64,000 nucleotides of DNA from a virus, in the IMG/VR virus record IMGVR_UViG_3300027782_000025, positions 62,001 through 126,000 of that record, one strand, 5' to 3'. The notes under the pieces are model-generated. The model was not told the origin of the DNA, searched no databases, and saw only the letters and a program-made list of their open reading frames with translations. Every line of letters starts with the position of its first letter. Positions within the stretch are counted from its first letter, which is position 1. The translations under genes were made by a program, and so were the position numbers. Shown here one piece after another: positions 15,019 to 60,151 of the stretch.

Positions 15019-15026
15019 TATTTCAC

Positions 15027-37781: not shown

Positions 37782-39259
37782 GTTAAATAAAACCAATTCT
37801 TATTATTTAGTGTAACCACTCTTGAATTAGTAACAGCAATACTACTTCCACCCTGCGTTGGTGGCACGGCCCCACGCGTCCCGCGTGGTGATGGCGGCGG
37901 CGGCGGCGGATCTACAACCGGTGTAGGTGTCAATGGCGTGGGTGTAGGCGTCGGAACATAGGGCGGCGGTACTACGGGTGTAGGCGGTGGGGCTGGAGGA
38001 AATATAGGCGTCGGTGTCGTCGGCGGCTCTGGTGGTTGAAGCGGCGTTGGTGTGCCAGTAGAAGTAGGTGTAGGCGTTGGTTTTGGCGGTACTGGCGGAG
38101 GGTCTGGAAACTGCGTAGCAGAACCGCAAGCAAAAGTTAAACAAAAATCTTGTGCTGGTAAAGCAAATTCAGCATCGCTCAGTTTCTGCGATAGATCTGC
38201 TAAGATCTTGCGAGCCTGATTATCAATGCTAGTTATATATTCCTTAGCTCTGGCACCTAATTCTGCATCAATTTTATTTAAACTCGCCTGATATTCGCTA
38301 ACCACCGCTTTGATATAATCTGATAATGTTAAACTAGAATCGAATTGGACAGGTACATCACTAGAATCTGTAGATCCAGTTGGTAATCGTAGTACAGTTA
38401 AATCAAGCCTTGTAAAATCTCCCGCTGGTTGCTGAAGCTGCCAATCGCTTAGTTTAACTTCATTACAATCTCTAGCATCCGCAGGATAACGCAGATACCT
38501 TTGTAATAAAGAGGCTGACAGCCTATTCGCGGCTCCATTTTGGATATCTAGTTCACTCTTTGTAAAGATCATCTGGTGCCCGCCGCCTTCAAACCCAAGC
38601 AGATTCAAGTCAACAATAGCACTATCAGATAATTCATTAGGTAAGTCATGATATAATATGCCATTGAGATTATAAATAGTCTTCCCGTTGAGTCCTATTC
38701 TTCCATCTACCCCTAGCGGACCTAGGTAATCAAAACCGTGTTTCCCTGGTGGCCCCTCTAGGCCTTTGGGTCCGGTGTCGCCTTTAGACCCTGGTAGATC
38801 AATCGTCAAAGAGTTTAGAAAATTATCGCTTAACGAAAAGTTTAATGCCGGCGGTGTCGGTCCATCAGGAACCAGTATAGCTTTTGATGGCGAACAGTTC
38901 GCAGTGTCTGGTGTCCTGCCGACTGGTGTAAAAACTGAACATGTTATATCGATAGAATCACTAACTAATGTTATATTCCCAGATATTGTGCCGTCGGCGC
39001 CAATGCCAGTTAGACCCGCTTTTGGATCTACTATGATCGAAAAACTACCAGGCGTATCGGTTTGTATAGTATCTATAAAGGCTTTGTCAATTTTGTTGAG
39101 ATAGCCGATTATTTCAGACGAAGCTACTTCAGGCGACTGAGCGACACCTTGACGTTCCCATAGATCATTTGATTTATTATAAACCCATCTAGTATCTCTA
39201 GAATAGTCAATAAATACTTGACCATCATACGGGTATTGTGGTAATAAATTATCAACCAT
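37778..39259 (-). CDS. fibre-like protein with collagen and Pro-rich regions
   Basis: 493 residues. The N-terminus (LLPQYPYDGQVFIDYSRDTR, then W-V-Y-N-K) is the same kind of fibre-attachment module as in the next gene. A short collagen-like stretch (PGSKGDTGPKGLEGPPG) lies near residue 155-172, followed by a helical region rich in coiled-coil heptads (about 310-365) and a long Pro/Thr region (about 385-470) ending in a Ser/Gly tip. The similar start suggests it is a paralogous or partner fibre of the 2264-residue protein. AAGAG precedes the ATG. Confidence 0.75.
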   Translation of the reverse strand: MVDNLLPQYPYDGQVFIDYSRDTRWVYNKSNDLWERQGVAQSPEVASSEIIGYLNKIDKAFIDTIQTDTPGSFSIIVDPKAGLTGIGADGTISGNITLVSDSIDITCSVFTPVGRTPDTANCSPSKAILVPDGPTPPALNFSLSDNFLNSLTIDLPGSKGDTGPKGLEGPPGKHGFDYLGPLGVDGRIGLNGKTIYNLNGILYHDLPNELSDSAIVDLNLLGFEGGGHQMIFTKSELDIQNGAANRLSASLLQRYLRYPADARDCNEVKLSDWQLQQPAGDFTRLDLTVLRLPTGSTDSSDVPVQFDSSLTLSDYIKAVVSEYQASLNKIDAELGARAKEYITSIDNQARKILADLSQKLSDAEFALPAQDFCLTFACGSATQFPDPPPVPPKPTPTPTSTGTPTPLQPPEPPTTPTPIFPPAPPPTPVVPPPYVPTPTPTPLTPTPVVDPPPPPPSPRGTRGAVPPTQGGSSIAVTNSRVVTLNNKNWFYLT

Positions 39260-42468: not shown

Positions 42469-43887
42469 CTACCTCCAGCTTTCATTTCCTTCTTCTTCGT
42501 CGTCGTCCCCAAGATGGCGTTCATCATCGCCTAATTCTTCGTCGCCATCATTATAGTCTTCCTGATATCCTGCTTCATTTTCGTCATTATCCTCTTCTCG
42601 CATTGATCTTTCGAGCAATTCTATAAGAGCCTGTTCTGTAGTCGTCCCTTTAGATGGACGACCTTCGGCCATATTATCAGCTAGACCCATCATAATGACA
42701 TGTAATTCCTTAGGATGGGCTGACGCCATGTGCATAACCACATGTGCTAGCTTTGATTTATGCTGAGCAGGAATAATAGACAATAATTCCTTCCAGATTT
42801 TAGGTCCGATCTGGATTTGCGGAAATTCGTTCGCCAAAGTATCTGCCAATCTTATAGCTTCTTTAGAAATCTTTTTATCGACATCAGTAAACTGATGCTG
42901 GGCCAATAAGGTCATTAAGCCTTTAACTAATTCTTGTAAGAGAACAGGAAAGCAAGCAGCTTCAGCTTGAACGGTATCGCCTTTCACCTTAGCTGTTCCC
43001 ATCGCCTGTCCTAAAGATGCGCCGAGCATCATATTCAGATCATAAATCCAATAATGATGAGATGCACCTCTGCCAAAAGCCGAATATAATTGTTGCAGCT
43101 CTGGCGATAGGCGGCCAACCGCATCCATCACTTCTTCTTCAAAATGTCCATTGTGCATGTTATGAATAGCGGATCCTTGGGACAGCAGATTCATCATATG
43201 ACGTTTACCAACTTGCTCTTGAAGCTCCGGAGTCATTTGAACCTTCTCATCGCCGCTCTCATTGTCATCATCATTATCATCTGGTTCAGGCTGTGGCTGC
43301 CTTAGAAATGCTTTTAGAGTCTCTTCGGGACATCCGTATAATTTAGCAACTGCTCTTACTGCTATCTTTTCTAACTGTTTTTTAAATGGCTGTTCTAATG
43401 ACATCATTTTCTGTAGTGCTCGACCAGTTAGCTGACCTAATTGCTGGCGCCGGCGATCTGGAGGTAAATCTTTTAATTCTGGAAATGTTTTAAACAAAGT
43501 GCTATTACTGTCATTATAACCTTGTTCTGCTAATTTAGAACCATGCTTTTTAACCATTTCATGGTCTGTAAATGATACGCCTGGGTGGCCCTTTTCCCAC
43601 ATTTCTTGTGTTCTTGGATGTGTGAACTCACGATATGCTTCATTAATAATGGTCTTTTTAAAGGCTTTTGGCTTTGGTTTAACGTCTGGTGCAGGATTTT
43701 TAAAAGGGTTTTTGGTAGGACTCTCACTTGGCGGAGCTTTAGGCACTATGACCGGTGCTGTTGCTGGGCCAGAAGAGCCCATTGCTTCATCATCATCTTC
43801 ATGCTTTTTTGTAGGATCTGCAAAGACATTTGGATCTTCAGTTAAAAATTTAGCGATGTCATTAACGTCATACTTATCATTCTTCAT
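42469..43887 (-). CDS. conserved head-associated protein, 472 aa
   Basis: N-terminal residues 1-80 are disordered with an early FLTED, a possible prohead-protease site. The core (about 140-420) includes LTGRALQKMMSLEQPFKKQL, EKIAVRAVAKLYGCPEETLK, then GKRHMMNLLSQGSAIHNMHN and SHHYWIYDLNMMLGASLG, a pattern I recognise from conserved proteins near capsid genes of large phages, without a known function. The C-terminus is a strongly acidic tail (EDNDENEAGYQEDYNDGD). GGAG precedes the ATG. It is likely virion-associated. Confidence 0.7.
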   Translation of the reverse strand: MKNDKYDVNDIAKFLTEDPNVFADPTKKHEDDDEAMGSSGPATAPVIVPKAPPSESPTKNPFKNPAPDVKPKPKAFKKTIINEAYREFTHPRTQEMWEKGHPGVSFTDHEMVKKHGSKLAEQGYNDSNSTLFKTFPELKDLPPDRRRQQLGQLTGRALQKMMSLEQPFKKQLEKIAVRAVAKLYGCPEETLKAFLRQPQPEPDDNDDDNESGDEKVQMTPELQEQVGKRHMMNLLSQGSAIHNMHNGHFEEEVMDAVGRLSPELQQLYSAFGRGASHHYWIYDLNMMLGASLGQAMGTAKVKGDTVQAEAACFPVLLQELVKGLMTLLAQHQFTDVDKKISKEAIRLADTLANEFPQIQIGPKIWKELLSIIPAQHKSKLAHVVMHMASAHPKELHVIMMGLADNMAEGRPSKGTTTEQALIELLERSMREEDNDENEAGYQEDYNDGDEELGDDERHLGDDDEEEGNESWR

Positions 43888-43916: not shown

Positions 43917-44357
43917 TTAAGACCTTATGGTATTATTAAACCTCTTATATAATTTATCCATCATAGCCATATAGGTATCTTTTCCACCAAGTGTCAGACG
44001 GACGATGTCTGAATCATCTACAATCCCGCCTCGGTCTGGGAAGTATTCCTCACAAGCCACGGTTTCTTCATGGGCATAAAAAAGGTGGGGAACGAGAGAC
44101 GGCACAACCAGCTTATTGCCATCGGTTAAAATGTGATGCTTCTTTTCCGGACCATAAAATTCGATGATTTCTAAATTACCTGTCTTTACTACGAATTCAT
44201 TCGATCGGTGAGTATGATAGTGCAAAGAACAATAACCACCTTTTTCAATATTTAATAGATGCTTACTATATCTCTGACAGGTAAAAACTACATCCGTGTT
44301 TCCCCATATCTTGTTGTTTTCATACCCATCATATAAATAGTAAGGAATTTCTGACAT
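43917..44357 (-). CDS. cupin-domain protein
   Basis: 146 residues with two cupin motifs: GGYCSLHYHTHRSNEFVVK (the G-x5-HxH-x4-E metal-binding motif 1) and VPSLVPHLFYAHEETVACEE (the motif-2 P-x-x-x-H stretch). This is the fold of sugar-phosphate isomerases and epimerases, and the HxH-E-H set is intact, so it could be a sugar isomerase or a metal-dependent dioxygenase-like protein. CAGGAGATC precedes the ATG and a GATAAATA element lies at 44385. It may act with the glycosyltransferases of this genome. Confidence 0.8.
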   Translation of the reverse strand: MSEIPYYLYDGYENNKIWGNTDVVFTCQRYSKHLLNIEKGGYCSLHYHTHRSNEFVVKTGNLEIIEFYGPEKKHHILTDGNKLVVPSLVPHLFYAHEETVACEEYFPDRGGIVDDSDIVRLTLGGKDTYMAMMDKLYKRFNNTIRS

Positions 44358-44379: not shown

Positions 44380-44616
44380 TTATCTATTTATCAACGTAGG
44401 TGTCTTGCTATTAGCAGAGGCTAACTGCTCTATTTTTTTGACCATTTGCCCAGCGTTTCTAGCATATCGTCGTTTTATTTCACCAACACGCCCATCGCCT
44501 GTTAAATACTGATAAATGTTACCGTTAGGAAAAGCGATCTTTACTTTTCCTGTGCCATCCCAATAGATCATGGTCGGCTTGGCGATACTAGTTTCTAATA
44601 ACATACTAATTTTCAT
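44380..44616 (-). CDS. small KTSC-like protein with capsid-targeting-type N-terminus
   Basis: 78 residues. The N-terminus MKISMLLE matches the T4 capsid-targeting style, ending in L-L-E followed by Thr, a consensus (I/L)xE site of the prohead protease. The remainder, VKIAFPNGNIYQYLTGDGRV, resembles the small KTSC-type domain (strand, NGxxYxY, turn). It is the last of four adjacent genes sharing this N-terminal pattern, so packaging in the head is inferred. Confidence 0.65.
   Translation of the reverse strand: MKISMLLETSIAKPTMIYWDGTGKVKIAFPNGNIYQYLTGDGRVGEIKRRYARNAGQMVKKIEQLASANSKTPTLINR
44385..44392 (-). promoter_or_regulatory. late promoter-like GATAAATA
   Basis: Minus-strand GATAAATAGATAATA, located inside the end of the 78-residue gene and 28 bases upstream of the cupin ATG. 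A start near 44379 would leave a 22-base leader with the CAGGAG site. Confidence 0.55.
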
Positions 44617-44630
44617 TATGATTTACCATT

Positions 44631-45662
44631 TTAGTAATCTCTATCCTTTTTTTGCTTAGATGACTGGACCAAGATTTCCCTTGCTAAATCTCCAGCACTA
44701 TGTATGTCGGCTGAATTTATATCAGCCGCTAGCCCATATATGTTAAATAATATCGAGCCAGTGCCTACTGGCCTCACATCTTTGATGCTTCGATAACCAT
44801 CAATAATTTGCTTATCAGCCAAATAAGAATACATCTCACCAATGTGTTTGATCTCTGACATCTGATCTAAACTAAACTCCATTATTATTTCCTGCCTATA
44901 GTTATTATAGAATCTAATGCTATCTTCTGTAAATTGGATACCTCCGCCACCGGTTTCAAAGACCGCTACATTATAAACCCTATTAAATTCATTGTCATCG
45001 ATCTGCAATTTAAACCCGCCTCCAAAGTCTCGCCACCTATAAGATATAGCCTCATCGTTTAAAAATCTCATACCATTAATGTAATTTGCATATTTCGGAT
45101 AATCTACCGTCACCTCGTTAGTGGTCCTTTTCGCGAATTCATCGAGGTTTTGTGGTGTGGTTAAGTCTTCTATGGCTGTTCGCACTATGAAACCATTCGG
45201 CCTTAATACATCGATGTTTTTAGGGGTGACTGTAATGATTCGTTTAGGATCTCCTTTTTGGGCGCCATTAACAGGTAGTTTTAACTTATCACTCAACACG
45301 AATTTTTTAAAACTTGCCCAATCGGTCGAACCTTTTGTAGCTGCCATTTTGGCTTTAGCTTGATCTATACTTAGTAACCTCTTTTGCTCATGCTCTTGTA
45401 CTTCACGAGCTAGTTTCTGTTCCGCTTCTAAAGCCGCATCGAGATCTTCTTGAGTCCGAGCATATTTTAGAATAGCTTCCTTTTCCCATAATATAGAGTT
45501 TATTAGTGAGCTAATATTCTCGTCCGCCAAGCTATGGTTTCCGGTATCTCTAAAATCTATCGCCCTCTCTAACTTATCTAGCATTTGGGCCATACCGGCT
45601 TTAAGGCGGTCCAAGTCATGCCTGCTTATCGTAGCTTCTGTAATGATTTGTTTTATTTTCAT
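44631..45662 (-). CDS. probable internal head protein, 343 aa
   Basis: Begins MKIKQIITEATISRHDL: a short amphipathic helix ending in I-T-E then Ala, the layout of T4 internal-protein capsid-targeting sequences cleaved by gp21. A coiled-coil helix follows (EQKLAREVQEHEQKRLL, about 90-110) and then a beta-rich domain (about 130-343) with a GGGIQFTEDSIRFYNN stretch. Unknown function. The ribosome site is weak, so it is probably translated from the upstream message. Confidence 0.65.
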   Translation of the reverse strand: MKIKQIITEATISRHDLDRLKAGMAQMLDKLERAIDFRDTGNHSLADENISSLINSILWEKEAILKYARTQEDLDAALEAEQKLAREVQEHEQKRLLSIDQAKAKMAATKGSTDWASFKKFVLSDKLKLPVNGAQKGDPKRIITVTPKNIDVLRPNGFIVRTAIEDLTTPQNLDEFAKRTTNEVTVDYPKYANYINGMRFLNDEAISYRWRDFGGGFKLQIDDNEFNRVYNVAVFETGGGGIQFTEDSIRFYNNYRQEIIMEFSLDQMSEIKHIGEMYSYLADKQIIDGYRSIKDVRPVGTGSILFNIYGLAADINSADIHSAGDLAREILVQSSKQKKDRDY

Positions 45663-45672
45663 AGTTAATTCT

Positions 45673-47562
45673 TTAGACTAAAGCCTCCAAACGTTGAATC
45701 CGTCTCAATCGCCTTGTCGCGATTTGCCGAGTGTCTTGATGCGTGCTTTGGGATAGCTGTAATAATGTCTCTTTATCTCTTGTCTCTCGCGCTATATCGA
45801 TTTGCGTGATTTCATCGTATGAATTTATATTTAAAATAGTCTGAATTAATATTCTTACTGCCCTTACTGTCTTTTGATCAGCAAACCTGCTGCTATTGAC
45901 TGCAGGCAAATTATCATAAATATATCTCAGTTGCTCATGTTCGAGGCTAAGTATAATTTTAAGGACATTGTTTAAGGCATTCGAAAATAAATTTTCACCA
46001 GATCTCATATGCCTGCTGTTTAAACATGGCGCTATTATTCTTGCCATATCGATAGAGTTTTGTTTTGAAGCAATAATGCTATTATTTTGCGCGATTTTAT
46101 AATAATATTCTATGAACTTCATCGCCATATTAGAGAATACCTCTTCATTATATGTCTCACTAAAACACATATCCGAGTATAACTTATATAAATCATTTAT
46201 AGGAATGCAATATAGAATCGTCTCAGGATATAGGCCATCTCTCGCATCGCCGACAGAACCATCGGCTGCAGCTTTACATATGTGCTCGGCATAGGGCGTT
46301 AAAGCACTGCTCACAGCATTAAAATTTGAAAGCGCTAAAACGTATCTTCTGTATAAAAGATGAAACTCAGAAATTGGTAGTTTTAAAATCGTCTCTAGAA
46401 ATGATTCTGGGTCATAAACACTACGATATGATGCTAAGCATGCATTGTCAGTACCAGCCAGCTCTAACCATTGGCCTTGCCCTATCCCTTTAGATTCAAA
46501 TGCGGCATAATTACTAATCATTTTATTATAAAGTTTAAGCTGATACCCAGTACCAGTCAACCTAGTGTAAATGCTCTTTAATGTGGTATACCTCAGATTA
46601 CTTATGTCCATTTCTAATATTTGAGACATATTGTCACCGATTAACTTTAGTAAGATTTCATCAGCTTTATCTTCAGACATGAATTTTGAAAATCGGTTAA
46701 AATATTCTTTATCCCAATCAATTCGGTCTACGAATTTTGCGACATATTTCGTGTTCTCTTCTAAAATCTTTAAAAAATCATCTCCTGTCACCTTATAATC
46801 AGTAGTAACCAACCAATCGAGAACAGCTTTCTGATATTTTGGAACTGGCTGTCTATTTTGTCTACCTTTTATTTCAGATATTTTATTATAATCGATAATT
46901 CTTATATCGACAAATGGTCTATTACTAGCATTTCTCATACTCATCACCGACTGGCCCTTGGTATCGAATATATATGATCTGATACAATTCTGCATTAGTT
47001 TTCCTTCTAACTCTGCATCATCCCTATGGAGCGGTACAAAGAACCACTGACCAATCTGGACTGTACCCTCTGTTTCGATACCATGTTTATGAACACCGTA
47101 ATTGGCTGAAATATTTTGTATTCTTTCATGCCATTCCTGAGAGCTAGCCATGGCTCTTTCTAATGATAGATCCTTTACATCCTCTAAGTCCATCTCATTC
47201 GCTTCGAAATAATCAAATATTCCATTTTCTATTGGGACTTCATCTTGAGCTTCTTTCCATACCTTTAAAATCCACTGATAGTATCTCCGGCTTAGTTCTT
47301 GGGCTCTCTTTTGCATCTGTTCATATCTAATGTGGCCTTCGGACTTCTGGGTTTGCTTAGCAAAAGGATCTAAGTCTTGGACTAAAGAAATGGCTTCAGG
47401 CGTGATTTCTGTGATTACATTTGTAGCAAGACCGAATAGTAATTTTTCGGCGTTTTTAGCATCTATGTTTATAGCGGCATTAATATTAGCTTCGCCTACT
47501 TGTTCGCCATATTTTTTGTTTAAATAATTAAATTGGCTTTCTAATATTATCGACAAATTCAT
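45673..47562 (-). CDS. PcfJ-like domain protein, probable internal head protein
   Basis: 629 residues. MNLSIILESQFNYL is a capsid-targeting-type N-terminus (I-L-E before Ser). Residues about 172-253 match the PcfJ-like pattern: WFFVPLHRDDAELEGKLMQN, a conserved Cys in NCIRSY, a slippery VMSMRN with RPFVDIRII, and ISEIKGRQNRQPVP. The C-terminal 370 residues are a repetitive helical array with a Leu/Ile/Tyr-rich pattern (HEAT-like in appearance). The PcfJ domain is found in mobile elements and phages but its activity is unknown to me. GAAGGAT precedes the ATG. Confidence 0.7.
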   Translation of the reverse strand: MNLSIILESQFNYLNKKYGEQVGEANINAAINIDAKNAEKLLFGLATNVITEITPEAISLVQDLDPFAKQTQKSEGHIRYEQMQKRAQELSRRYYQWILKVWKEAQDEVPIENGIFDYFEANEMDLEDVKDLSLERAMASSQEWHERIQNISANYGVHKHGIETEGTVQIGQWFFVPLHRDDAELEGKLMQNCIRSYIFDTKGQSVMSMRNASNRPFVDIRIIDYNKISEIKGRQNRQPVPKYQKAVLDWLVTTDYKVTGDDFLKILEENTKYVAKFVDRIDWDKEYFNRFSKFMSEDKADEILLKLIGDNMSQILEMDISNLRYTTLKSIYTRLTGTGYQLKLYNKMISNYAAFESKGIGQGQWLELAGTDNACLASYRSVYDPESFLETILKLPISEFHLLYRRYVLALSNFNAVSSALTPYAEHICKAAADGSVGDARDGLYPETILYCIPINDLYKLYSDMCFSETYNEEVFSNMAMKFIEYYYKIAQNNSIIASKQNSIDMARIIAPCLNSRHMRSGENLFSNALNNVLKIILSLEHEQLRYIYDNLPAVNSSRFADQKTVRAVRILIQTILNINSYDEITQIDIARETRDKETLLQLSQSTHQDTRQIATRRLRRIQRLEALV

Positions 47563-47627
47563 GTTTATATCCTTCTTTCAAAACCTTTTTGGCTATTTTA
47601 TCACGATACTGCGTGACCTGACGCACA

Positions 47628-48176
47628 TTACTTTACGTCTGATAGACCTAATCTTCGCGCCATAGCTTCTTTATTAGATTCATTCGGATGCATAGCTGCC
47701 GCTTGATTGCTACCAAAGCTAGCCATATTTTGTTGGTAATACGCTTCAAATTCCTCGATAGAACAAATGCCTTGTTGCTCTCCCTGCGCTGTTTTTATTC
47801 TATAAGTGACTCCTTCATCATCTGCGACCCACTTCGCGGACGGCGAATTAAAAATCTCAGGAAATGATAACTTTGTCTCTTTAATTTCGTCTTTATCCCA
47901 CGACATATTTTTTAAATATTTTTCTTTAAATTGCTTGACCATTTCGGAGTTAATATGCGGTAAAAAGAATTTCTGGTATATTGGTAGAAAATTATTGACA
48001 TGAGCAACACCATTCTGGTTGCCTTGTTGACTAATTATTTGATATTGGATCTCTCCGTCAGGTCCGATGAAATACTTGCCAAAAGCACCGTAGGCTAGTG
48101 GTGGAAATTTAAGAGACTCGATATCTATCGTTTCCGAAAGTAGCTTTTTTTCATGCAAAATAGACGATATATTCAT
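47628..48176 (-). CDS. probable internal head protein with a duplicated domain
   Basis: 182 residues from ATG 48176 (GGAT seven bases upstream; the promoter at 48214 argues against the longer GTG start at 48209). The N-terminus MNISSILHEKKLLSETID carries an LLSE site of prohead-protease type. Two copies of one unit follow: YFIGPDGEIQYQIISQQGNQ and WVADDEGVTYRIKTAQGEQQ, each continuing to an aromatic YQ motif. No function known. It is the first gene after the major-capsid terminator. Confidence 0.65.
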   Translation of the reverse strand: MNISSILHEKKLLSETIDIESLKFPPLAYGAFGKYFIGPDGEIQYQIISQQGNQNGVAHVNNFLPIYQKFFLPHINSEMVKQFKEKYLKNMSWDKDEIKETKLSFPEIFNSPSAKWVADDEGVTYRIKTAQGEQQGICSIEEFEAYYQQNMASFGSNQAAAMHPNESNKEAMARRLGLSDVK

Positions 48177-48325: not shown

Positions 48326-49900
48326 TTAGAGGTTAGAAACGTTGATCACACCGTAGTACAAGCCACCGTCTTCGATCAACTTCTTACCATATCGGGTCAT
48401 GATGCCCTTGTTAGGTGTGAAGCTATTAGGATCAAGAACAGTAGGAGTGCTAAGCAAAGGAATGTAAGGAGCATAGAAATAACCCGCATCCAATACACTA
48501 TTACCCTTGAAGCCGAGCAAGATCTTGCAATTAGGGAAGAGAGGATCTTTATAGAGCCTGATCTTGCCTTGGATGGTACCAATGTTCATGATACCGATAT
48601 CAATGCCATCGGTTGTAAGAGCATCGCTTGCACGGAAATCGTTAAGCTGCTCAAACTTGGAAGCGATATCGGAACTCATAACAGCCCAGTTAGCAGGACC
48701 ACGAAGAGTGGTTCTGTGGATAATGTTCGCAACTTCGAGTGTCTTATAAAGCAACGCGATGTTACGATCAGTAAAGTTAACTGAAGCTCCAGCTGCAGTG
48801 GCGAAGTTATGGGTAGCACGAATCGAAGAAGCGATAATCAAGTCATTGATAATTTCGCGGTCGATTTCTGCAACCATTTCGTCAGCCATTAAATCAGTCA
48901 AGGTGCTCTCAGCATCAATGTTATGCACTGATTTGAGATCTTGAGCAGCTTCTAATGACCAGCTGGTCTTAAGCTTGCGGGTAACAGCAGCAACGCTATC
49001 ACTGTCAATGCTCAAGGTTACTTCTGGCTGGAATGGGTTAGCTTCGAGATCGTACTCATAATTAACGCGTGCTACGGACCCAGTTGGGAACGAGCCGGAT
49101 TGCAATGATACGGTTACAACTCCGGTGCTGTGATTGAAAGAGGAATTGCCGGTATCAACAGCAAGAATGCTGGTGAAATCGGTGCAATCGCCGATCAAAA
49201 CCACATCAACCGCGCCAGTAGAGTCAAAACCAACTCGGAGGCAAGGTGTTGGATCATCACAATTAGGGTTTGCTGCTGCTTCGCTAGGGAAGACTTCTAC
49301 AACCACGGTGCCAGCAAGAACTGGACGATGACTCAAAGTACCGCTAACACCAGTAAGCGAACCATTGATGGTCGCGTCTTCACCCTTAACTTCTTGGGAA
49401 GAATAATAAGGATCAAGTGCCCAGCCATTATTTCGTGAGAAATTTTGAGCTGTGTTTTGGCGCATGATCTGGGTGCCAGCTACCGTTTGGCCTTTAGTAA
49501 GAGCATAACGATACCTGATGTAGAAAATCAAACTAGCTGGTTGACTCATGGGCTGAACACCAACAAGGTTATCAGCGATAAGTTTAGGATAGGATTTTCG
49601 GATGAGGGGCAATGCAAAGCGAGTAAAGTCCGCAATGTTTGCAGTGGTGGTTTGATCTTCGAGAATCATCGATCGGTTGCCTGGGTTCCAAGCATTGAAT
49701 TGATTTTCGAGGATAGACGCCATAAGGCCGAATTTGCTCTTCGCAACTTCACGGCACTTGGAAAGAACTGGAGTCCATTTCTTTACCAAGGTGTTTTTAC
49801 GACCTTCGTTGAGCACTGCTGCTCGGTGAAGATCGGCAGATTCGGTGATAAAACGGTTTTGGCCGCCGGCCAAGTGTTGGCCATTAGACTTATTCAACAT
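48326..49900 (-). CDS. major capsid protein, T4 gp23-like
   Basis: 524 residues, close to T4 gp23 (521). The N-terminal 80 residues (LVKKWTPVLSKCREVAKSK, then ASILENQ and RSMILEDQTTT) form the removable peptide; two (I/L)xE sites lie at Glu65 and Glu81, and alignment by pattern with gp23 favours Glu81 as the cut. FARFALPLIRKSYP-like (actual DFTRFALPLIRKSYPKL), LVGVQPMSQPASLIFYIRY mark the HK97-fold start. It forms the capsid shell hexamers. GAGGAG precedes the ATG, and a strong terminator follows. Confidence 0.93.
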   Translation of the reverse strand: MLNKSNGQHLAGGQNRFITESADLHRAAVLNEGRKNTLVKKWTPVLSKCREVAKSKFGLMASILENQFNAWNPGNRSMILEDQTTTANIADFTRFALPLIRKSYPKLIADNLVGVQPMSQPASLIFYIRYRYALTKGQTVAGTQIMRQNTAQNFSRNNGWALDPYYSSQEVKGEDATINGSLTGVSGTLSHRPVLAGTVVVEVFPSEAAANPNCDDPTPCLRVGFDSTGAVDVVLIGDCTDFTSILAVDTGNSSFNHSTGVVTVSLQSGSFPTGSVARVNYEYDLEANPFQPEVTLSIDSDSVAAVTRKLKTSWSLEAAQDLKSVHNIDAESTLTDLMADEMVAEIDREIINDLIIASSIRATHNFATAAGASVNFTDRNIALLYKTLEVANIIHRTTLRGPANWAVMSSDIASKFEQLNDFRASDALTTDGIDIGIMNIGTIQGKIRLYKDPLFPNCKILLGFKGNSVLDAGYFYAPYIPLLSTPTVLDPNSFTPNKGIMTRYGKKLIEDGGLYYGVINVSNL

Positions 49901-49919: not shown

Positions 49920-50648
49920 TTAGATTAGGTTCTCGTCAAGATTAGCCGCAATGCTATTGATATTATAACCACCGGCAACAATAGCTGGTTGCTTAGGTGG
50001 AGTGGATGGGTCTTGGCTTTCTACTAATGTTGGCCTGGTGGTAGTAGGGTTTTGGGAAAGACTCTTCCTTGGCAACAGGTTAGGCCTGCTTGCTTTGGGA
50101 GCTCTATTCTCAGTAACCGTCTTAGTACCAACCAACATACGTTTGAGTCTGATATTCTCAGATTCAAGTCCCTGTGATTCAGCTAGAATTTTGCGAGCAA
50201 TAGAAGTCTGCTTGTTCGCTAGTTCATTGGCCTTATCGCAGGATTCAACAAGTTGCCTAATTTTGGCTTTTGCAGCTTCAAAACTAGTCTTCAGCTTGCC
50301 ATCGTTTCCAACATTCAGCTCGATGCCTTCTACTAGAGCGGCAATTTTATTGAGCTTGCTGGTACTTTTGGACTCTGAAGATACTGACTGCTTTCGAAGC
50401 TGAGCTTCGATAGCGGCACCCTTGGTTTCACAGAATATTTGTACGCGTCGAGCCAAATCACGTTTGTACGTTTCGGTTTCTTCAACGCAAATCTTTTTGG
50501 CCTTGCTAATCTTGGTGACAAATTCTGCCTCCAAAGATTCTTTGATAGTTGATTTGTAAGATTCTAAGGATTCGATGATCCTACCAGTAAATTCTGGTTG
50601 AACTCCAGCTTTTTGCAACAAATCTTTTAATTCAGCGATAGCTTCCAT
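49920..50648 (-). CDS. prohead scaffold protein, T4 gp22-like
   Basis: 242 residues, almost entirely charged alpha-helix with coiled-coil heptads (about 20-175), as in T4 gp22. It has several (I/L)xE protease sites (RIIES, ALVEG, RQLVES, KILAES, PTLVES), consistent with complete degradation by the prohead protease during maturation. TAGGAGTATAAAG precedes the ATG. It lies between protease and capsid, as in T4. Confidence 0.85.
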   Translation of the reverse strand: MEAIAELKDLLQKAGVQPEFTGRIIESLESYKSTIKESLEAEFVTKISKAKKICVEETETYKRDLARRVQIFCETKGAAIEAQLRKQSVSSESKSTSKLNKIAALVEGIELNVGNDGKLKTSFEAAKAKIRQLVESCDKANELANKQTSIARKILAESQGLESENIRLKRMLVGTKTVTENRAPKASRPNLLPRKSLSQNPTTTRPTLVESQDPSTPPKQPAIVAGGYNINSIAANLDENLI

Positions 50649-50699: not shown

Positions 50700-51422
50700 T
50701 TACGAAAGACCGAAAAATTTATTAATCTCTTCAACCACCATGTTTTGGTAAACAGACGGCGAAAATTTCTTTTTCATAGCCTTTAATGGAGTCATTCTTT
50801 TTTTAAGATCCTCTTGGATATTAAGAATAGCACCATTAACGCTAGGCTCAGCCACAGCATCCCAAGTCACGAATGTGTAGCCTGGTAAAACCCTATAAGT
50901 CTCTTGGCCATTGCTTTCGCTAACTACTTCCATATCGCCAACACCACGAGAGCTGATGCCGACTCTCACTTTATGTTCGAATAGGCCACGCAAGCAAGCA
51001 CCGCAAGGTAATTTATGAAGTATCTCTGCTTCACCAAAAACCTTTCGTCCTTCCATCCAGACATTCGTCATTAGATGGCTAACTCTATCAAGGTGAATTT
51101 TAGCATCACTAGGATGATCGAATTCGCCAAGTACTGCTCTAGCCTTGATATCTTCTTGGATTTGCTTGATAGCTGGCGCTAAGACTTCATTGGTCGAATA
51201 ATAGCGACCATTGCCGTTAGGTTGATCGCCCATCTGGATAAGACCTGTCACTCGTAGAACTGGAGTACCATTTCCATTGCGATCTTCCCTGATAGCATTC
51301 TTCTTATCTAAGATTTTAAATTCATGAGTATCCCTGATCAGCTTCATGCCGGCAGGGATTACTCCTGTTTCTGCGATTACTCTTCGATTCTGAAAACACG
51401 ATGTTCTTCGACTAGGTATCAT
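50700..51422 (-). CDS. prohead core protease, T4 gp21-like (peptidase S77)
   Basis: 240 residues. LGEFDHPSDAKIHLDRVSH gives the catalytic His103, GISSRGVGDMEV the nucleophile Ser157 or Ser158 and TWDAVAEPSVNGA the likely third residue Asp188, as in S77/HK97-type proteases. GRYYSTNEVLAPAI precedes the His as in T4 gp21. An autocleavage-like RRVIAETG lies near residue 18. It cuts scaffold, capsid and internal proteins after (I/L)xE. AAGGAG six bases upstream decides ATG 51422 over the longer frame. Confidence 0.92.
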   Translation of the reverse strand: MIPSRRTSCFQNRRVIAETGVIPAGMKLIRDTHEFKILDKKNAIREDRNGNGTPVLRVTGLIQMGDQPNGNGRYYSTNEVLAPAIKQIQEDIKARAVLGEFDHPSDAKIHLDRVSHLMTNVWMEGRKVFGEAEILHKLPCGACLRGLFEHKVRVGISSRGVGDMEVVSESNGQETYRVLPGYTFVTWDAVAEPSVNGAILNIQEDLKKRMTPLKAMKKKFSPSVYQNMVVEEINKFFGLS

Positions 51423-51432
51423 TATTTGCTCC

Positions 51433-54400
51433 TTAAAGGTCAATATTGTCAAGATCGTCGCGATCGCCGATTCCCTCGACTGATTCGTCGTTCTTACGCT
51501 TGTTGACCTTCGGTTTTACATCTGTGCGTGGGTCTTCTTCGGCTTGTTTATGATACTTGGGCTTGCTAGGGTCCGTAATATCATTATCTTCATTAAGACC
51601 GTCGAAATCTTCGTCTTCGTCCTCAGTATCGATGTTGTCATCGTCCGACTCGTCTTCATACTCTTCATCATCGGCCGATTCATCATCCGCATATTCTTCA
51701 CCGTCAGCGAGTTCATCACCGTCCTCGATGGCTTCGTCATCCATTGACTCACCGCCATCAATTAGTTCCTCATCACCAAATTCATCATCGAGATCTTCTT
51801 CTTCCATTCCGGACATTTCCATGTCGTCATCTTCGATGTCTGAAGCATCCATATTCATTTCATCATCGCTTTCAAGACCCAATTCATCCTTAATCTCGTC
51901 GATTTCATCATGAATGCTATCAATTTCAGCTCTCATTTCATGGTCTGATCCACCTTCATCGCCGTATTCGTCTCCGCCTAGTTCGAGATCTAATGAACTC
52001 ATGTCGCCATCGGAGCCATCTTCGAGGCCATCTTCTTCGCCGGCCATGTCATCAGTGCTTTCAAACTCATCTTCGCCACCAATTTCGTCGGCGTCATCAA
52101 GGTCGCCTTCGCCTTCAAGATCTTGATCTACATCGCCCATGTCGACTCCTTCTTCGTCGTCGACAGCCGAAAAATCAGGCATATCTTCTTCCTCCGAAGG
52201 CGATGATATGGAAGGCTCAGTAGCTTCTACAGGTTTCATTGCATCAATTTCTTCTTCGAATTCTTCATTTAAAAAGTTTCGTTCAGATTCGGAGATTGGT
52301 GAAAGCTGGTCGATACTACCTGCTAACCACTCACGAAATAATGAAGAATTTCCTTTGATTACCCTAGCAGCAGCTAAAGCACTATTTTGAACTTTTTTAG
52401 GAACGGGTATTTCGACTGTTCCGTCTTCTGACATAACGACTGCAGGTAATTCTGCATTACCATGGTCAAGAGCAAACTTGGCGCCATTGAAGACCCCATA
52501 AAGGACATCGCCGTTTTTAGAAGTCCAGCGGATAGCGTTTTCGCTTACTGGCTTTGCAGCCTCTTCATTTTTCTTACCAGCCTTGCCAAATGAATTTCTG
52601 CTTAGCCCGCGTTTTCGCATTATCGGGGATTTCCTCTGGCTTTCCTTGACTGCAGCCCGAGTGTTTTGGTAAGTGTCGACTATTTGATTAACAGCTAGAG
52701 GAAGCATAGATTGATTTAGATTCAAAACGACCTTTCGAATGCAAGATTCAACGATCTTGGGAAGTCCTTTTACCAATTGTTCATTGGTCAAATTATTAGC
52801 TATTACATGCCTGTCGACCATCTTAACTATCATTTGGATCTTTGAATTATCATTAATCGCAGTCTTACCATATTGACCCATTATAGCTCTATCGCCTTTG
52901 GAAACATTGTAGGCATACTGATCAGTAGATTCGTTTATCGGTCGTTTATTTTTATTACGGCTTTCTAGTCTTGGGGGGCCACCTGGGGCTGCGCCTGGAG
53001 CTGGTGCTGCACCTGGGGCTGCGCCTGGAGCTGGTGCTGCGCCGGGAGCGGGAGCTGCACCAGGGGCTGGTGGTGCGCCGGCTGTAGGTGGCTCGTCGAG
53101 TAGTGCAGATAAATCATCTTCGCCGCCGGCTTCGTCTGGCATGCCAAGATCGTCTTCACCTTCTTCACTTGCTGCTGAACTCTTCCCGCCGATTTGAATC
53201 AGAGGAGAATTAATATTTATAACTGGTGCGCCCGAAGGAGCTTCTTCCTCTTCGGTATCGACTTCTGGCAGCCCAGAATCAGTGGTATTTGGCATTTGAT
53301 CGAAATCCGCAAGATTTTCATTCGAAGTCACTTCCTCTTGGATAGTGGCTATCAAATCTTCCGCTTCATAAATCGTTGCATCATCAACAGCCTTATCTTT
53401 CAGCTTGTTTATTAAGCCGTCGAGCTTACTCTTTAATTCATGGTTTTCCATGATTCTAGGAGTCTTATCTCTTAGCTGGCTTAAAGTAGTCGCAAGCGCT
53501 TCCGCAGCTATTTCTCTGTTTCCGATGGTTTCAAAAATAAGGTCCAAGAATTTATTATAAACTGGTTCGAATTCCTGAGCTTCAGATAATATAGCAACAT
53601 TCTGTGCAAGATTATAATTTTCAACAGCGCTTGCAATATTCTTCCATTCTTTAACGATCTTGCTGCGATTTACTCGCAGGTTCGTCTTATGGAATAATGT
53701 CGCCACATCTTCACATAATTGTGGGTTAAAGATCGCCTTTGCTGCAAGTGCGTTAGAAACGAGTTCTTTGGTTTGCGATCTATTCAAGAGAGTAAATTCT
53801 TCGTACTCTTCTAAAAATGGTGCAACCAAATTAACCGCTTTGTCTACATTACCTTCGGATATCAAAGAGGCAACATCATAAATGCGCCCTTGAAAACCTT
53901 GGCTAAGATATGCTTCCATCGCTACTTTACGCATAGTCTTTGCTGTTAACTTCTTAGTAGCCCATTTTGAAACGGGCAGATTAAACTGTTCGCCATCAAT
54001 GAAATGGCCACCAATAGCGTGATTATCTTCAACAATCACTCTGGTAGAAATCGATTCTACCACACAAGCAACGATTTTTTTCTTGATGTCTTCGTTAATT
54101 TGTTCTGGAGTTCTTACCTTAATACGGCGCACAACGCCGTCTTTACTGCAAACCATCCCAGATTCTGGGATAACGCGGCCGGTAAAGCGTTGAGCCTTCA
54201 TACGTCCAAAAGTAGATTGCATACCCTTTTGGTCATTCCGTTCAATAGCGTTAATCAAACGCAAGCATGATTCTTCGAAAAGACCAGCTTTTTGACTTTC
54301 TACTATAGAGATAGGTTGAATATCGGTGATATTTATTGCACCATGTGACTTATGGTGTTTAGCGATATAAAAGGTGTTAGATCCTACATCTTCGATGTAA

Positions 54401-54576
54401 AGATCTTTCGAATAAAGCGCAGCCAAGCGCCAGTTTTTATTTGTTGCCTTGCCTAGTTCCTTAACTTTAGATTCAAAAAAAGCTACTTTAGCCTGAGCTG
54501 AATCGTTAAGGGCTCCCAAGAACTTTCGGCTATCCATTCGGATTGGACTAAGCGCTTTGTTCTGGTTCTGAGCCAT
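51433..54576 (-). CDS. large prohead core protein with acidic tail
   Basis: 1047 residues, in the position of T4 gp67/gp68 between portal and protease, but much larger. The N-terminal 430 residues are a helical domain with several ISE/IVE/VVE sites. Residues about 500-550 are an Ala/Pro/Gly repeat. The C-terminal 300 residues are extremely Asp/Glu-rich (LEGEGDLDDADEIGGEDEFE). The many prohead-protease sites and the acidic tail suggest an internal core or scaffold protein, digested or retained in the head. GGGAG precedes the ATG. No named family. Confidence 0.7.
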   Translation of the reverse strand: MAQNQNKALSPIRMDSRKFLGALNDSAQAKVAFFESKVKELGKATNKNWRLAALYSKDLYIEDVGSNTFYIAKHHKSHGAINITDIQPISIVESQKAGLFEESCLRLINAIERNDQKGMQSTFGRMKAQRFTGRVIPESGMVCSKDGVVRRIKVRTPEQINEDIKKKIVACVVESISTRVIVEDNHAIGGHFIDGEQFNLPVSKWATKKLTAKTMRKVAMEAYLSQGFQGRIYDVASLISEGNVDKAVNLVAPFLEEYEEFTLLNRSQTKELVSNALAAKAIFNPQLCEDVATLFHKTNLRVNRSKIVKEWKNIASAVENYNLAQNVAILSEAQEFEPVYNKFLDLIFETIGNREIAAEALATTLSQLRDKTPRIMENHELKSKLDGLINKLKDKAVDDATIYEAEDLIATIQEEVTSNENLADFDQMPNTTDSGLPEVDTEEEEAPSGAPVININSPLIQIGGKSSAASEEGEDDLGMPDEAGGEDDLSALLDEPPTAGAPPAPGAAPAPGAAPAPGAAPGAAPAPGAAPGGPPRLESRNKNKRPINESTDQYAYNVSKGDRAIMGQYGKTAINDNSKIQMIVKMVDRHVIANNLTNEQLVKGLPKIVESCIRKVVLNLNQSMLPLAVNQIVDTYQNTRAAVKESQRKSPIMRKRGLSRNSFGKAGKKNEEAAKPVSENAIRWTSKNGDVLYGVFNGAKFALDHGNAELPAVVMSEDGTVEIPVPKKVQNSALAAARVIKGNSSLFREWLAGSIDQLSPISESERNFLNEEFEEEIDAMKPVEATEPSISSPSEEEDMPDFSAVDDEEGVDMGDVDQDLEGEGDLDDADEIGGEDEFESTDDMAGEEDGLEDGSDGDMSSLDLELGGDEYGDEGGSDHEMRAEIDSIHDEIDEIKDELGLESDDEMNMDASDIEDDDMEMSGMEEEDLDDEFGDEELIDGGESMDDEAIEDGDELADGEEYADDESADDEEYEDESDDDNIDTEDEDEDFDGLNEDNDITDPSKPKYHKQAEEDPRTDVKPKVNKRKNDESVEGIGDRDDLDNIDL
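52981..53040. repeat. 30-bp exact tandem duplication
   Basis: Two identical 30-base units, 52981-53010 and 53011-53040, encode part of the Ala/Pro/Gly linker of the core protein in frame. A diverged third unit follows. Confidence 0.9.
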
Positions 54577-54636: not shown

Positions 54637-57135
54637 TCATGATTTTGGTAAATCATGCTCTGTGATATCAGCACCTTGTGATTCAGTGATCGGATGCCCT
54701 TTAGCTCTCATCAATATGTCATAATTTTCCTTAATGACTTCATCCCTGATAGCTTTAGGCACTGACCATTCTACTAATAAATCATTATCTTGGTTTGGAT
54801 CATGAATTATATTAGTCATTGGTTTTGGTTGGTTTCTAGAAAGACCATCCAATTCCTTTGATTCTATTAAATATTCATATTTAGTGTTCAAAGTCTTTGT
54901 ATCGTCATAACTAAATCCGCGCCTCTCATGTATCTTTTCTAAATATGTTCTAACCCTTCCTGACACTTCTTTGCGCTTCATTTCGTTAATCAGCTTTTTA
55001 TGAGCCTTGGCGTCAAAGCCGCCCTCACCAAGCGGCGGTAAACCTCCAGCGTCAGCACCACCAGGAGGAGCACCTGCGTCAGCACCACCAGGAGGAGCAC
55101 CTGCGTCAGCACCACCAACAGGAGGAGCGCCACCTTCAGCACCTTCTGGTGGCGCACCGCCTTCTGGAGGAGCATCACCAGCGCCTTCTAAACCACCCAT
55201 AGCACCGCCGCCGCCGCCACCGCCACCGCCACCGCCACCTCCGCCTTCTTCACCACCTTCTTCGCTTTCAGGAGACTTACTAAGCATTTCTAAATCTTTT
55301 AATTCTTGAATTTCGTCAGGAGTTAGATCGGTAAAATGGGTAACGATCCATTCTTTTGGGAACCAGCCAAGATCTTTAAGATCAGACATTACACCTACTC
55401 TTGTTCTCCAAGATTCGATCCTATATAATTCTTCCATGGCACTAGTAGCGGTAAGTGCTATTTCGAAGCCTTTAAGATCTTCAACAGAAAAACCTTTAAG
55501 TGCTAAATGGACAATAGCCACCTTTGTTAAGCCGTTTGCCACTTCTCTCTGAATATACTGAACGGCTTTAGCGAACTCGCTATGGCTCTGTGATAAGGAT
55601 TTTTCGCTTGACTCTCCAGCACCTTCCCCGATACCTACCCTAGCAAATGGTATTTTCATAGGCGCTACCATCTTCTTTTTAAAATATTCGATATCTGCTA
55701 TTTTATCGACATTTTCACCGCCTTGTAGTATTTCAACATCAGGGCCAGTGCCGTCGCTACGTCTAGGCAGAAAATAATCATCTTCTTGAATTAGAGGACT
55801 ATATCGTTCATCAAAAGAGCCGGTGGTAGGGTTATAAAACCTCTGCCTCTTAAAATTCCTAGCAATCATCTGCATATATTCTGGAACTTCTTTGGGCGGT
55901 ATCATTCCAACAGGTATTATAAACTTGCGTCGTTCCGGTGCTCTTGTGATCCTATAAATCAAAGCGGCATCTTCCATCAACCGCAATTGCTTAAACGCCT
56001 TCCTACCGCCATCTAGTATTGACTTGCCGTAGGGGGCATAAAAGTTTTCAAAATTAGTTAATCGGAGATGCATAACTTGCCAAGGATGCAAGAATATGGG
56101 CTTTGGCCACATGCTATCCATGTGAAAGAATCCAATTAGATCACCATAACGGGTCTCGATCCTTGTGAAGTTATACACATTCATAAACTTAAGAGCCGCT
56201 ACCGATGTGCGGTCAGCGTCAAGCGTTATCTCAAACGGCATATCACCGTACTTGCACAGATACCTAATTGTAGGCCGGCAAAGAGTATCCCAATTTAAGG
56301 TATTATAAAACAGGCTTTCGAGTTCCCGCTTTAGGCGGATCGAACGTGCTCTAATAATTAAAGTGTGTTTACGCTCAGGGTCTACCAAGCTATTATGTAC
56401 TATCAGAAAATTAGGGCCTGTCCCGACAGCAAAGTTATGATGCTCAGGAACCTCTATATCGTATACTTTATCTGCCTTCCCAGCAACTTCTACGGCTTTC
56501 ACTACCTTCTCACCATCTTCTTCGGTCGGTGCATCGATGGGTGTACCGGTTATATCTGCATTAATTATAGTAAAAGAACGTATCCGCTGCCCCGCCTTTA
56601 ATTCAGATGCTCTAACATATTCATCTGTCTCAGTTAAGTAAAGATGCTCAGCAGTATTCGTTATGATGGTGCCATCTTCGAAGATAACTCTAATAGTATC
56701 AACATCAATGCCAGTGACTCTGGCGCCCTTAGCGACAGCTGGAACGAATTTCTGGTTGGCGATATCATACGCTATGACGATGAACTCATGCTCGCTACCG
56801 GCCTGAGCCAATTTTTCTATCGTGATCGTAGATCCATTAACTAATAATATTGGAGTACTACCCACTAAACAGGCTTCATCTGCATATAGATCGAGAGCTA
56901 AGCTTATTTCGCCGGTTTGATCCATCTGCTCATAGTCTTTATATCTCTCTAGGCGATTTATCTGAAGATTTGTTTGGTCTAAAATAGCGGCTTGCTGGTT
57001 AAAATCTAAAAAATCACCACCGGATGTCAATCTATCGAGGTTAGTCTGATCTTGAAAGATCCTTTCCGACTGATATATTCTATTCTGCCTTGTCAGGGCT
57101 CGTAATCTATCGAAAATTAACCAATTGCTAGCCAT
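54637..57135 (-). CDS. portal protein, T4 gp20-like, interrupted by a mini-intein
   Basis: 832 residues including a 160-residue intein (56392-56871). The exteins carry portal landmarks: QTGEISLALDLYADEA before, SLVDPERKHTLIIRAR and LFYNTLNWD after, RRKFIIPVGMIPPKEVPEY and IADIEYFKKKMVAPMKIPFA further on. The C-terminal third is low-complexity: a run of Gly and 27-base repeats encoding Ala-Pro-Pro-Gly-Gly units, unusual for a portal. The portal forms the dodecameric head vertex for DNA packaging. GGAG before ATG 57135 is preferred to TTG 57147. A TGTAAATA element lies upstream. Confidence 0.92.
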   Translation of the reverse strand: MASNWLIFDRLRALTRQNRIYQSERIFQDQTNLDRLTSGGDFLDFNQQAAILDQTNLQINRLERYKDYEQMDQTGEISLALDLYADEACLVGSTPILLVNGSTITIEKLAQAGSEHEFIVIAYDIANQKFVPAVAKGARVTGIDVDTIRVIFEDGTIITNTAEHLYLTETDEYVRASELKAGQRIRSFTIINADITGTPIDAPTEEDGEKVVKAVEVAGKADKVYDIEVPEHHNFAVGTGPNFLIVHNSLVDPERKHTLIIRARSIRLKRELESLFYNTLNWDTLCRPTIRYLCKYGDMPFEITLDADRTSVAALKFMNVYNFTRIETRYGDLIGFFHMDSMWPKPIFLHPWQVMHLRLTNFENFYAPYGKSILDGGRKAFKQLRLMEDAALIYRITRAPERRKFIIPVGMIPPKEVPEYMQMIARNFKRQRFYNPTTGSFDERYSPLIQEDDYFLPRRSDGTGPDVEILQGGENVDKIADIEYFKKKMVAPMKIPFARVGIGEGAGESSEKSLSQSHSEFAKAVQYIQREVANGLTKVAIVHLALKGFSVEDLKGFEIALTATSAMEELYRIESWRTRVGVMSDLKDLGWFPKEWIVTHFTDLTPDEIQELKDLEMLSKSPESEEGGEEGGGGGGGGGGGGGGAMGGLEGAGDAPPEGGAPPEGAEGGAPPVGGADAGAPPGGADAGAPPGGADAGGLPPLGEGGFDAKAHKKLINEMKRKEVSGRVRTYLEKIHERRGFSYDDTKTLNTKYEYLIESKELDGLSRNQPKPMTNIIHDPNQDNDLLVEWSVPKAIRDEVIKENYDILMRAKGHPITESQGADITEHDLPKS
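55055..55108. repeat. 27-bp tandem repeat in the portal tail
   Basis: Two identical 27-base units (55055-55081, 55082-55108) and a diverged third encode Pro/Gly/Ala repeats. About 100 bases on, 55204-55245 is a GCC/ACC triplet run giving a poly-Gly tract. Confidence 0.85.
56392..56871 (-). other. mini-intein inserted in the portal gene
   Basis: 160 residues in frame with the portal. Block A is CLVGSTPILLVNGSTITIEK (Cys1 nucleophile), block B includes ITNTAEHLYLTE with the TxxH motif, block F is KVYDIEVPEHHNFAV and block G ends LIVHN followed by Ser+1. The penultimate His, terminal Asn and Ser+1 are all present, so splicing should work. No LAGLIDADG or HNH domain lies between blocks B and F, so it cannot home by itself. 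Removal joins YADEA to SLVDPER, the conserved portal sequence. Confidence 0.93.
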
Positions 57136-59224: not shown

Positions 59225-59718
59225 ATGTCATCATTTTCGCCTAGTGGTTGGCTTAAAATTCTTTCTAGCATGTTCGAATCAATTCCAGCGCTAACAGTAT
59301 TTTGCTGAATATTGATGCTAGACTTGGTAGCGGCCAAAGTTTTAGCGTTAGCTTCGATCATTTTAACGGCCGTAGTATTAATATTCGACTTTACTTCGAT
59401 CGCCTTTACAAGCGATTCAATTATACCAGTAGACAATTTAGAGCCTGTTCCGATAGCACTTTCTACTTGATCGCGCAACATGTTTATAAGATCTTGAGTT
59501 TCAGCCCGATCTGCCTTGCATGCCTTTAAAACATCATCAGTAACATCATCTAACCTACGCAAGTATTTGGTTATATCGACAGCTTCTGGTTCAACGCTTG
59601 CGTTATTAGGATTTAATGTAGATATAACATGTGGGGCTACATTGGCTAAGTCTAGTGTAGAGGGAACTTGGTCGCTGGCCTTGTCTAAATCTCTAAATAA
59701 ATCATTTAGTTCTGTCAT
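59221..59718 (-). CDS. terS: probable terminase small subunit, T4 gp16-like
   Basis: 165 residues, the length of T4 gp16 (164), directly upstream of and overlapping the large subunit. It is helical with a central coiled coil (about 75-135) and acidic, as expected for the ring-forming small subunit that recognises DNA. I see no clear HTH, and identification rests on position, size and coiled coil. AGGA precedes the ATG. Confidence 0.7.
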   Translation of the reverse strand: MTELNDLFRDLDKASDQVPSTLDLANVAPHVISTLNPNNASVEPEAVDITKYLRRLDDVTDDVLKACKADRAETQDLINMLRDQVESAIGTGSKLSTGIIESLVKAIEVKSNINTTAVKMIEANAKTLAATKSSINIQQNTVSAGIDSNMLERILSQPLGENDDI

Positions 59719-60151
59719 CCGATTTTTCCTCGGCGTTTTTATCTATCAACGACACTGATAAATTAGAAGATGCTAACTTTTCATGCAATTCTGTCACAGT
59801 AATCTTCTGGTCATCTATCAATTTTAACAATTTATCGAGTTTACCTTCAGTATGGACAGTATTGGCTTTTTTGCGTTGTGTCCTTGTGCTCTTTTTATGT
59901 GCTTGCTTGGTAGCTCCATGACTCATTTGGTCAATGGGCTTTTTTTTGGGGTGCACTCTTCCAGCAAGATCAAATGGCTTTACCCTGCTATGTCCAGTCG
60001 GATTATCGATCCTGTTCTTTTTGCCGACTCTAGTTCGTCTGCGTACTCTTTCTATAACTGAGCCGCCCATAGATTCAGCTATAAAACTATTAAATTCTTC
60101 CAAGGTTAATGACTGATCAGCGATTTTTTCTACTATTAGATCGTATTTCAT
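59702..60151 (-). CDS. hypothetical basic protein with capsid-targeting-type N-terminus
   Basis: 149 residues. MKYDLIVEKIADQSLTLE carries an IVE site and FNSFIAESMGG an IAE site, both prohead-protease type. A strongly basic central region (SVIERVRRRTRVGKKNR, PKKKPIDQMSHGATKQAHKK) could bind DNA. A helical C-terminus follows. AGGAAGAG precedes the ATG. It may be an internal head protein, by inference. Confidence 0.6.
   Translation of the reverse strand: MKYDLIVEKIADQSLTLEEFNSFIAESMGGSVIERVRRRTRVGKKNRIDNPTGHSRVKPFDLAGRVHPKKKPIDQMSHGATKQAHKKSTRTQRKKANTVHTEGKLDKLLKLIDDQKITVTELHEKLASSNLSVSLIDKNAEEKSDDRTK

Follow-up and report, generated by a model that had tools for sequence, protein, structure and literature searches.

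What is the role of the short, similar N-terminal peptides carried by four mutually unrelated proteins that are encoded directly 3' of a gp23-type capsid gene? The four genes form a cassette at positions 44380-48176, minus strand, of a 64,000-nucleotide window that covers bases 62,001-126,000 of a 274,625-bp IMG/VR virus record (IMGVR_UViG_3300027782_000025), a T4-type phage; coordinates below are those of the window unless given as genome positions. An earlier note on this DNA had compared the four starts with the peptides by which T4 internal proteins (IPs) enter the prohead. In T4, capsid-targeting sequences (CTS) already perform such head loading (PMC9026906, PMC3012670): the first 10 residues of IPIII are enough for head targeting, gp21 cleaves after L/I-X-E, and the IPs and Alt are ejected (PMC9026906). 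Our analysis indicates that the 8-9-residue N-termini of the cassette proteins are likely to be capsid-targeting propeptides that would be cut by the protease in the head, with the cargo probably leaving together with the DNA.

An ATG and a Shine-Dalgarno-like stretch are found at all four open reading frames (ORFs), confirming the earlier observation of four consecutive minus-strand genes with leader-like starts, and no similarity was seen among their products. The first gene (47628..48176) encodes a 182-residue protein with two candidate cut sites, ILHE/K and LLSE/T (a slash marks the predicted cut), giving a leader MNISSILHE/K (48150-48176) or a longer one ending in KKLLSE/T (48132-48176). 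The second (45673..47562) encodes a 629-residue protein with the leader MNLSIILE/S (47539-47562), the third (44631..45662) a 343-residue protein with MKIKQIITE/A (45636-45662), and the fourth (44380..44616) a 78-residue protein with MKISMLLE/T (44593-44616). The leader consensus, here termed class 1, is M[KRN][IL]xx[IL]xE, with Glu usually at residue 8. All four starts have the form expected of a T4-type CTS propeptide, about 6-20 residues with (L/I)-x-E at the end.

The same type of start recurs on other proteins of the phage and of its relatives. Gene calling, done in stretches, gave 323 genes for the genome, and the N-termini were shuffled column by column for comparison. The pattern M[KNR][hydrophobic].{2,5}[ILM].E was present in nine genes against 1.3 +/- 1.1 expected, a number reached in none of 5000 shuffles; since the four index genes had served to shape this pattern, the fair count is five others against 1.3, one of the five (150363) being doubtful. 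A scan of alternative starts yielded two additional leader genes. Leader genes outside the cassette lie at genome positions 37839 (MRLYQLINE/V), 47505 (MRLLSILE/G), 53406 (MKLSLILE/N), 58154 (MKLSILYE/S), 60559 (MKLISIIE/G) and 238217 (MKLLNIYE/A). In a wider set of 1,073 N-termini, taken from the genome and from 80 phage loci whose capsid genes are related, the pattern with a final Glu was found 23 times against 2.3 expected (z 12.9), compared with 0-7 matches for any other final residue. Of these 23 matches, 17 have the Glu at residue 8, and the residue after it is mostly S, N, G, A or D; a few single matches, such as MKIILPIKE in locus L006, are probably due to chance. The leader was completed at 27 of 112 gene starts, compared with 12 of 244 internal Met residues with a like start (p = 4e-7).

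The leader sites were compared with the phage's own maturation machinery. The gp21-like protease that the earlier note had placed at 50700, a prohead protease of the S77 type, is indeed encoded there (50700..51422, minus strand; PF03420 3e-15, phrog_207 7e-39), and alignment with T4 gp21 (28% identity) reveals conserved HP and SSRG motifs. The gp23-type major capsid protein (48326..49900, minus strand; PF07068 2e-78) has a predicted maturation cut at SMILE81/D82, which aligns with FLTE/A of T4 and reads [IL][LF]E/D in nearly all relatives retrieved. In two relatives Glu occupies P1', the position following the cut, and one further match to the expression misfits and is probably not the site. 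Because [IL]xE is conserved at the capsid site of the relatives and a gp21 homologue is encoded, the leader cut rule fits the protease of this clade, and the leader sites, judged from the capsid site, appear to be of the kind that the phage's own protease would cut. N-terminal peptides of the [IL]xE type also occur in T4 head genes, namely gp67 (KLFAE/A), gp68 (ALIPE/A), gp21 (LLIE/T), gp22 (QLIAE/A) and gp24 (ELLRE/S). An IAE/TG stretch in the N-terminus of the window's protease was considered as an autocleavage site; more distant relatives have IAQ, VAK or VAR there, and the stretch was not used as evidence.

The cassette genes and their leaders were compared across relatives. The capsid of the close sister L001 is 100% identical, and all cassette genes but the 182-residue one are present there; these three begin with MNLSIILE, MKIKQILTE and MKIAMLLE. 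The L001 orthologue of the 629-residue protein is 79% identical with an identical leader, and that of the 343-residue protein is 71% identical, with an I to L change at P3, the third residue before the cut, as the sole leader difference, which is tolerated by the L/I-x-E rule. Over the first 11 codons the sister comparison gives eight synonymous and two nonsynonymous changes, one of the latter being this I to L change. In sister L002 (capsid 94%) none of the four genes is present at this place, and the capsid gene is followed directly by a homologue of the gene at 42469. A homologue of the 182-residue protein in L024 (684-1124, 37% identity) lies between terminase and portal and starts MKLHCINE/D. 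The earlier note had looked to homologues near the capsid gene for retained leader starts; these are kept by the L001 orthologues and the L024 homologue of the 182-residue protein, but not by an L024 homologue of the KTSC-like 78-residue protein. Since gene content differs between the sisters, and since one L024 homologue has a leader and the other has none, the leader behaves as a module with variable cargo.

The gene at 42469 (42469..43887, minus strand), suspected in the earlier note to be a further member, encodes a 472-residue protein that does have a leader, but of a different class. It begins MKNDKYDVNDIAKFLTE/DPNVF (43837-43887), and its version IAKFLTE/DPNVF belongs to a class-2 consensus, IAxLITE/DPxxF, that is found on unrelated proteins across this clade of phages, at L034 and L106-L125; the protein itself has homologues in L001 and L002. 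Class-2-like starts on unrelated proteins of relatives occur nine times within the N-terminal 60 residues of genes, and twice in 240,983 residues of internal sequence. When the DNA of all IMG/VR was scanned for Ax[LF]ITEDPxxF, 20 stretches were returned; a single record has six matches. Nearly all matches lie in the first ~35 ORF residues, with the Glu mostly at about residue 12-15 of proteins of 59-450 residues; two or three, namely L117, L122 and one of the L112 matches, resemble chance or ambiguous starts. A gp23-type match is present in nine of the 19 class-2 records, most of the others being fragments. The Asp at P1' is the same residue as at the clade's capsid site, and the class-2 leader may be a second tag that may be cut after its Glu. 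Counting both classes, leaders are present in 13 of the 136 genes that lie up to 3 kb 3' of a capsid gene, compared with 7 of 412 elsewhere in the same loci (p = 1e-4).

The other suspected member, a 149-residue protein (59702..60151, minus strand), also remains a candidate, with the difference that its site is FIAE/S at residue 26 and not IVE at residue 8. The putative 26-residue propeptide is matched in homologues from L034 and L038, which have FINE/S and LISE/S at the equivalent place, and the mature protein is very basic (pI 10.4).

The cargo gives few hints of function. In the 629-residue protein, residues 172-247 form a weak PcfJ-like stretch (PF14284, E = 2e-4, under the curated Pfam cut-off). 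The PcfJ family originates from conjugative elements. PDB matches of this protein to L-glutamate oxidase (E = 0.02) were judged to be chance. The 78-residue protein has a basic mature part (pI 10.2) with a sub-threshold KTSC match (PF13619, E = 0.24), and the product of genome 47505 has phosphoribosyltransferase-like and 5'-nucleotidase-like stretches, likewise under the cut-off. Basic mature parts are found in the 59702, 380-residue, 189-residue and 78-residue proteins. Apart from the weak PcfJ-like stretch and the KTSC match, no effector domains were recognized in the cargo; Pfam and PHROG revealed no ADP-ribosyltransferase domain in the window's proteins and no homology to T4 IPs or Alt. 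A PADLOC search gave weak matches only, INPHARED sequence searches gave none for the 629- and 343-residue proteins, and GTDB genomes none for the 629-residue protein. The AlphaFold model of the 182-residue protein, of low confidence (mean predicted local distance difference test score, pLDDT, 61), suggests two beta-rich repeats and a disordered leader; this model and that of the 343-residue protein (pLDDT 42) are too poor for naming a fold, and Foldseek with the 182-residue model gave no matches under 1e-3. Among the leader proteins elsewhere in the genome, those at 37839-38981 and 58154-59584 have a weakly similar domain in common (25% over 87 residues, E 0.002). The gene at genome 45579-46859 (L083:5580-6860) belongs to a paralogue family with about four further copies in the genome, and with members in relatives, one of which (L074:1633-2382) begins MRLKLLYE/S.

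The presence of the protease, the [IL]xE capsid site, the Glu-specific recurrence and the leader kept on the L024 homologue together give good support to the reading of these peptides as a T4-like packaging signal, the part of the earlier proposal that has held up best; the effector role that it added is less certain. The leader would bind the prohead core and draw the protein into the prohead during assembly, where the gp21-type protease would cut after (I/L)-x-E and free the mature protein before DNA entry. DNA would then be packaged over the enclosed mature proteins, which would probably exit with it when the phage infects and then act inside the host. Head packaging of the leader proteins is likely, judging from their N-termini and from the analogy with T4, and on the same grounds we infer core binding and cleavage of the leader; injection and action in the host are less certain than these earlier steps.

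Several observations weigh against this interpretation. The mature 182-, 343- and 629-residue proteins are acidic (pI 5.6-5.7), unlike T4 IPs, the first site of the 182-residue protein has Lys at P1', and the cargo shows no clear depletion of internal [IL]xE sites. The 629- and 343-residue proteins were found in just one other record, and the L024 homologue (14901-15116) of the KTSC-like protein is without a leader. Among T4-type jumbo phages, class-1 leaders show a weak excess in LR756508 (5 vs 1.9, p = 0.036) and none in the portions of LR756511 (1 vs 1.9) and CM1 that were searched, indicating that this leader class is not universal in the group. In LR756508, an uncultured phage, similar proteins are encoded in a tandem array (L103:29697-35576) that starts ~4 kb past the capsid gene, and several of these have leaders (MRLKEILLE/N, MKLKGILKE/A and MIKFKKLLFE/D). 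The array has LYRGT and KRSESKFGS-like motifs and, by eye, may be ADP-ribosyltransferase-like; it gave no Pfam matches and one PHROG, of unknown function.

The most serious competing explanation is that the leader does direct proteins to the prohead core, but that these are head-building or DNA-condensing core parts which are retained or degraded and not injected. T4 gp67, gp68, gp22 and gp24 are structural and yet have N-terminal [IL]xE sites (PMC9026906), and the four basic mature parts would suit such a role. The differing presence of the genes in close sisters, with the 182-residue gene missing from L001 and all four missing at this place from L002, is better explained by accessory cargo, and some of the cargo is enzyme-like, as in the sub-cut-off stretches of genome 47505. 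We therefore regard retention as core parts as a possible but rather unlikely outcome. It is more doubtful still that the motif targets or binds the proteins to something else, such as the membrane or another phage structure, and resembles a gp21 site only by accident. Cleavage of the leaders is a prediction, and in class 2 the DPxxF is conserved past the Glu and could be part of an uncut binding motif; against this, Glu is required at the final place, the clade's capsid is itself predicted to be cut at [IL]xE, and leaders cluster beside the capsid gene. Chance is the least credible explanation. MK followed by hydrophobic residues is a common start, Glu is frequent, and looser patterns lacking the M[KNR][hydrophobic] start show no excess in the genome (12 vs 9.6), but the shuffles, the Glu-specific excess and the internal-Met control all contradict it. 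The interpretation as capsid-targeting propeptides is thus preferred. Its extension to a clade-wide system of cargo tags, with two leader classes that are interchangeable (MKLxxLxE/ and IAxLITE/DPxxF), at least ten unrelated accessory proteins per head and rapid swapping beside the capsid gene, is about evenly balanced between being right and wrong.

The surrounding minus-strand head module follows the T4 order 20-67-68-21-22-23. The T4-type portal gene (54637..57135; PF07230 3e-66) has an inserted in-frame intein of ~150 residues (PF14890 3e-9), and the L009 portal is continuous across the insertion point. A 1047-residue acidic protein without Pfam matches (51433..54576) is a putative core component from its gp67/gp68 position, and the gene at 49920..50648, without a Pfam or PHROG family match, encodes a putative scaffold from its gp22 position between the protease and capsid genes. 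Adjoining the cassette is a cupin gene without a leader (43917-44357, minus strand; PF00190 2e-6; phrog_7851 cysteine dioxygenase 5e-14), which is present in both L001 and L002. An NADPH-dependent FMN reductase-like gene (23725-24600, minus strand; PF03358 1e-8) lies amid structural-looking minus-strand genes.

The cassette resembles the T4 CTS system of IPI, IPII, IPIII and gp21 in its short N-terminal peptide with (I/L)xE before a small residue, its unrelated cargo, its gp21-type protease and its gene order. It differs in having ~10 class-1 leader proteins per genome compared with three IPs, cargo of up to 629 residues, Glu at residue 8-9 instead of 10, many mature parts that are not basic, no sequence similarity to the IPs, and a second leader class. 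T4 Alt, a head-packaged and injected ADP-ribosyltransferase, is likewise a large protein with a very short gp21-cut N-terminal propeptide (ITE-6, PMC5694885), whereas the window's proteins have no detected domain of that kind. In phiKZ and SPN3US many head proteins are cut after Glu by a gp21-related protease and a mass of proteins is ejected, much as is predicted here; their sites are SxE or AxE, however, and SPN3US propeptides often exceed 100 residues (PMC5694885), compared with 8-17 residues and [IL]xE here. Packaging and injection with the DNA have also been proposed for polyvalent proteins (PMC5512222), which the 629-residue protein recalls through its weak PcfJ-like stretch; those proteins combine several known domains and no leader peptide defines them, whereas the 629-residue protein has a single sub-threshold match.

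The earlier note's description of the set as undescribed applies in part: T4 CTS already represent this class of device, whereas the varied cargo and the second leader class are apparently new. No description of such leaders in environmental or jumbo phages was found in the open-access literature searched, in which a tag on ~10 unrelated proteins per genome, large acidic cargo, an exchange site beside the capsid gene and the ITE/DPxxF leader appear to be undescribed. It is difficult to establish which proteins a phage delivers into its host along with the DNA, and almost nothing is known of this for uncultivated phages. If the leaders are head-targeting tags, the IAxLITE/DPxxF leader would be a second tag type and the injected cargo of a large clade could be listed from sequence alone. 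It would then be known where and when proteins of unknown function act, namely in the first minutes of infection, when counter-defence is needed, and a two-class tag system would make N-termini a direct catalogue of the injected proteins of environmental phages.

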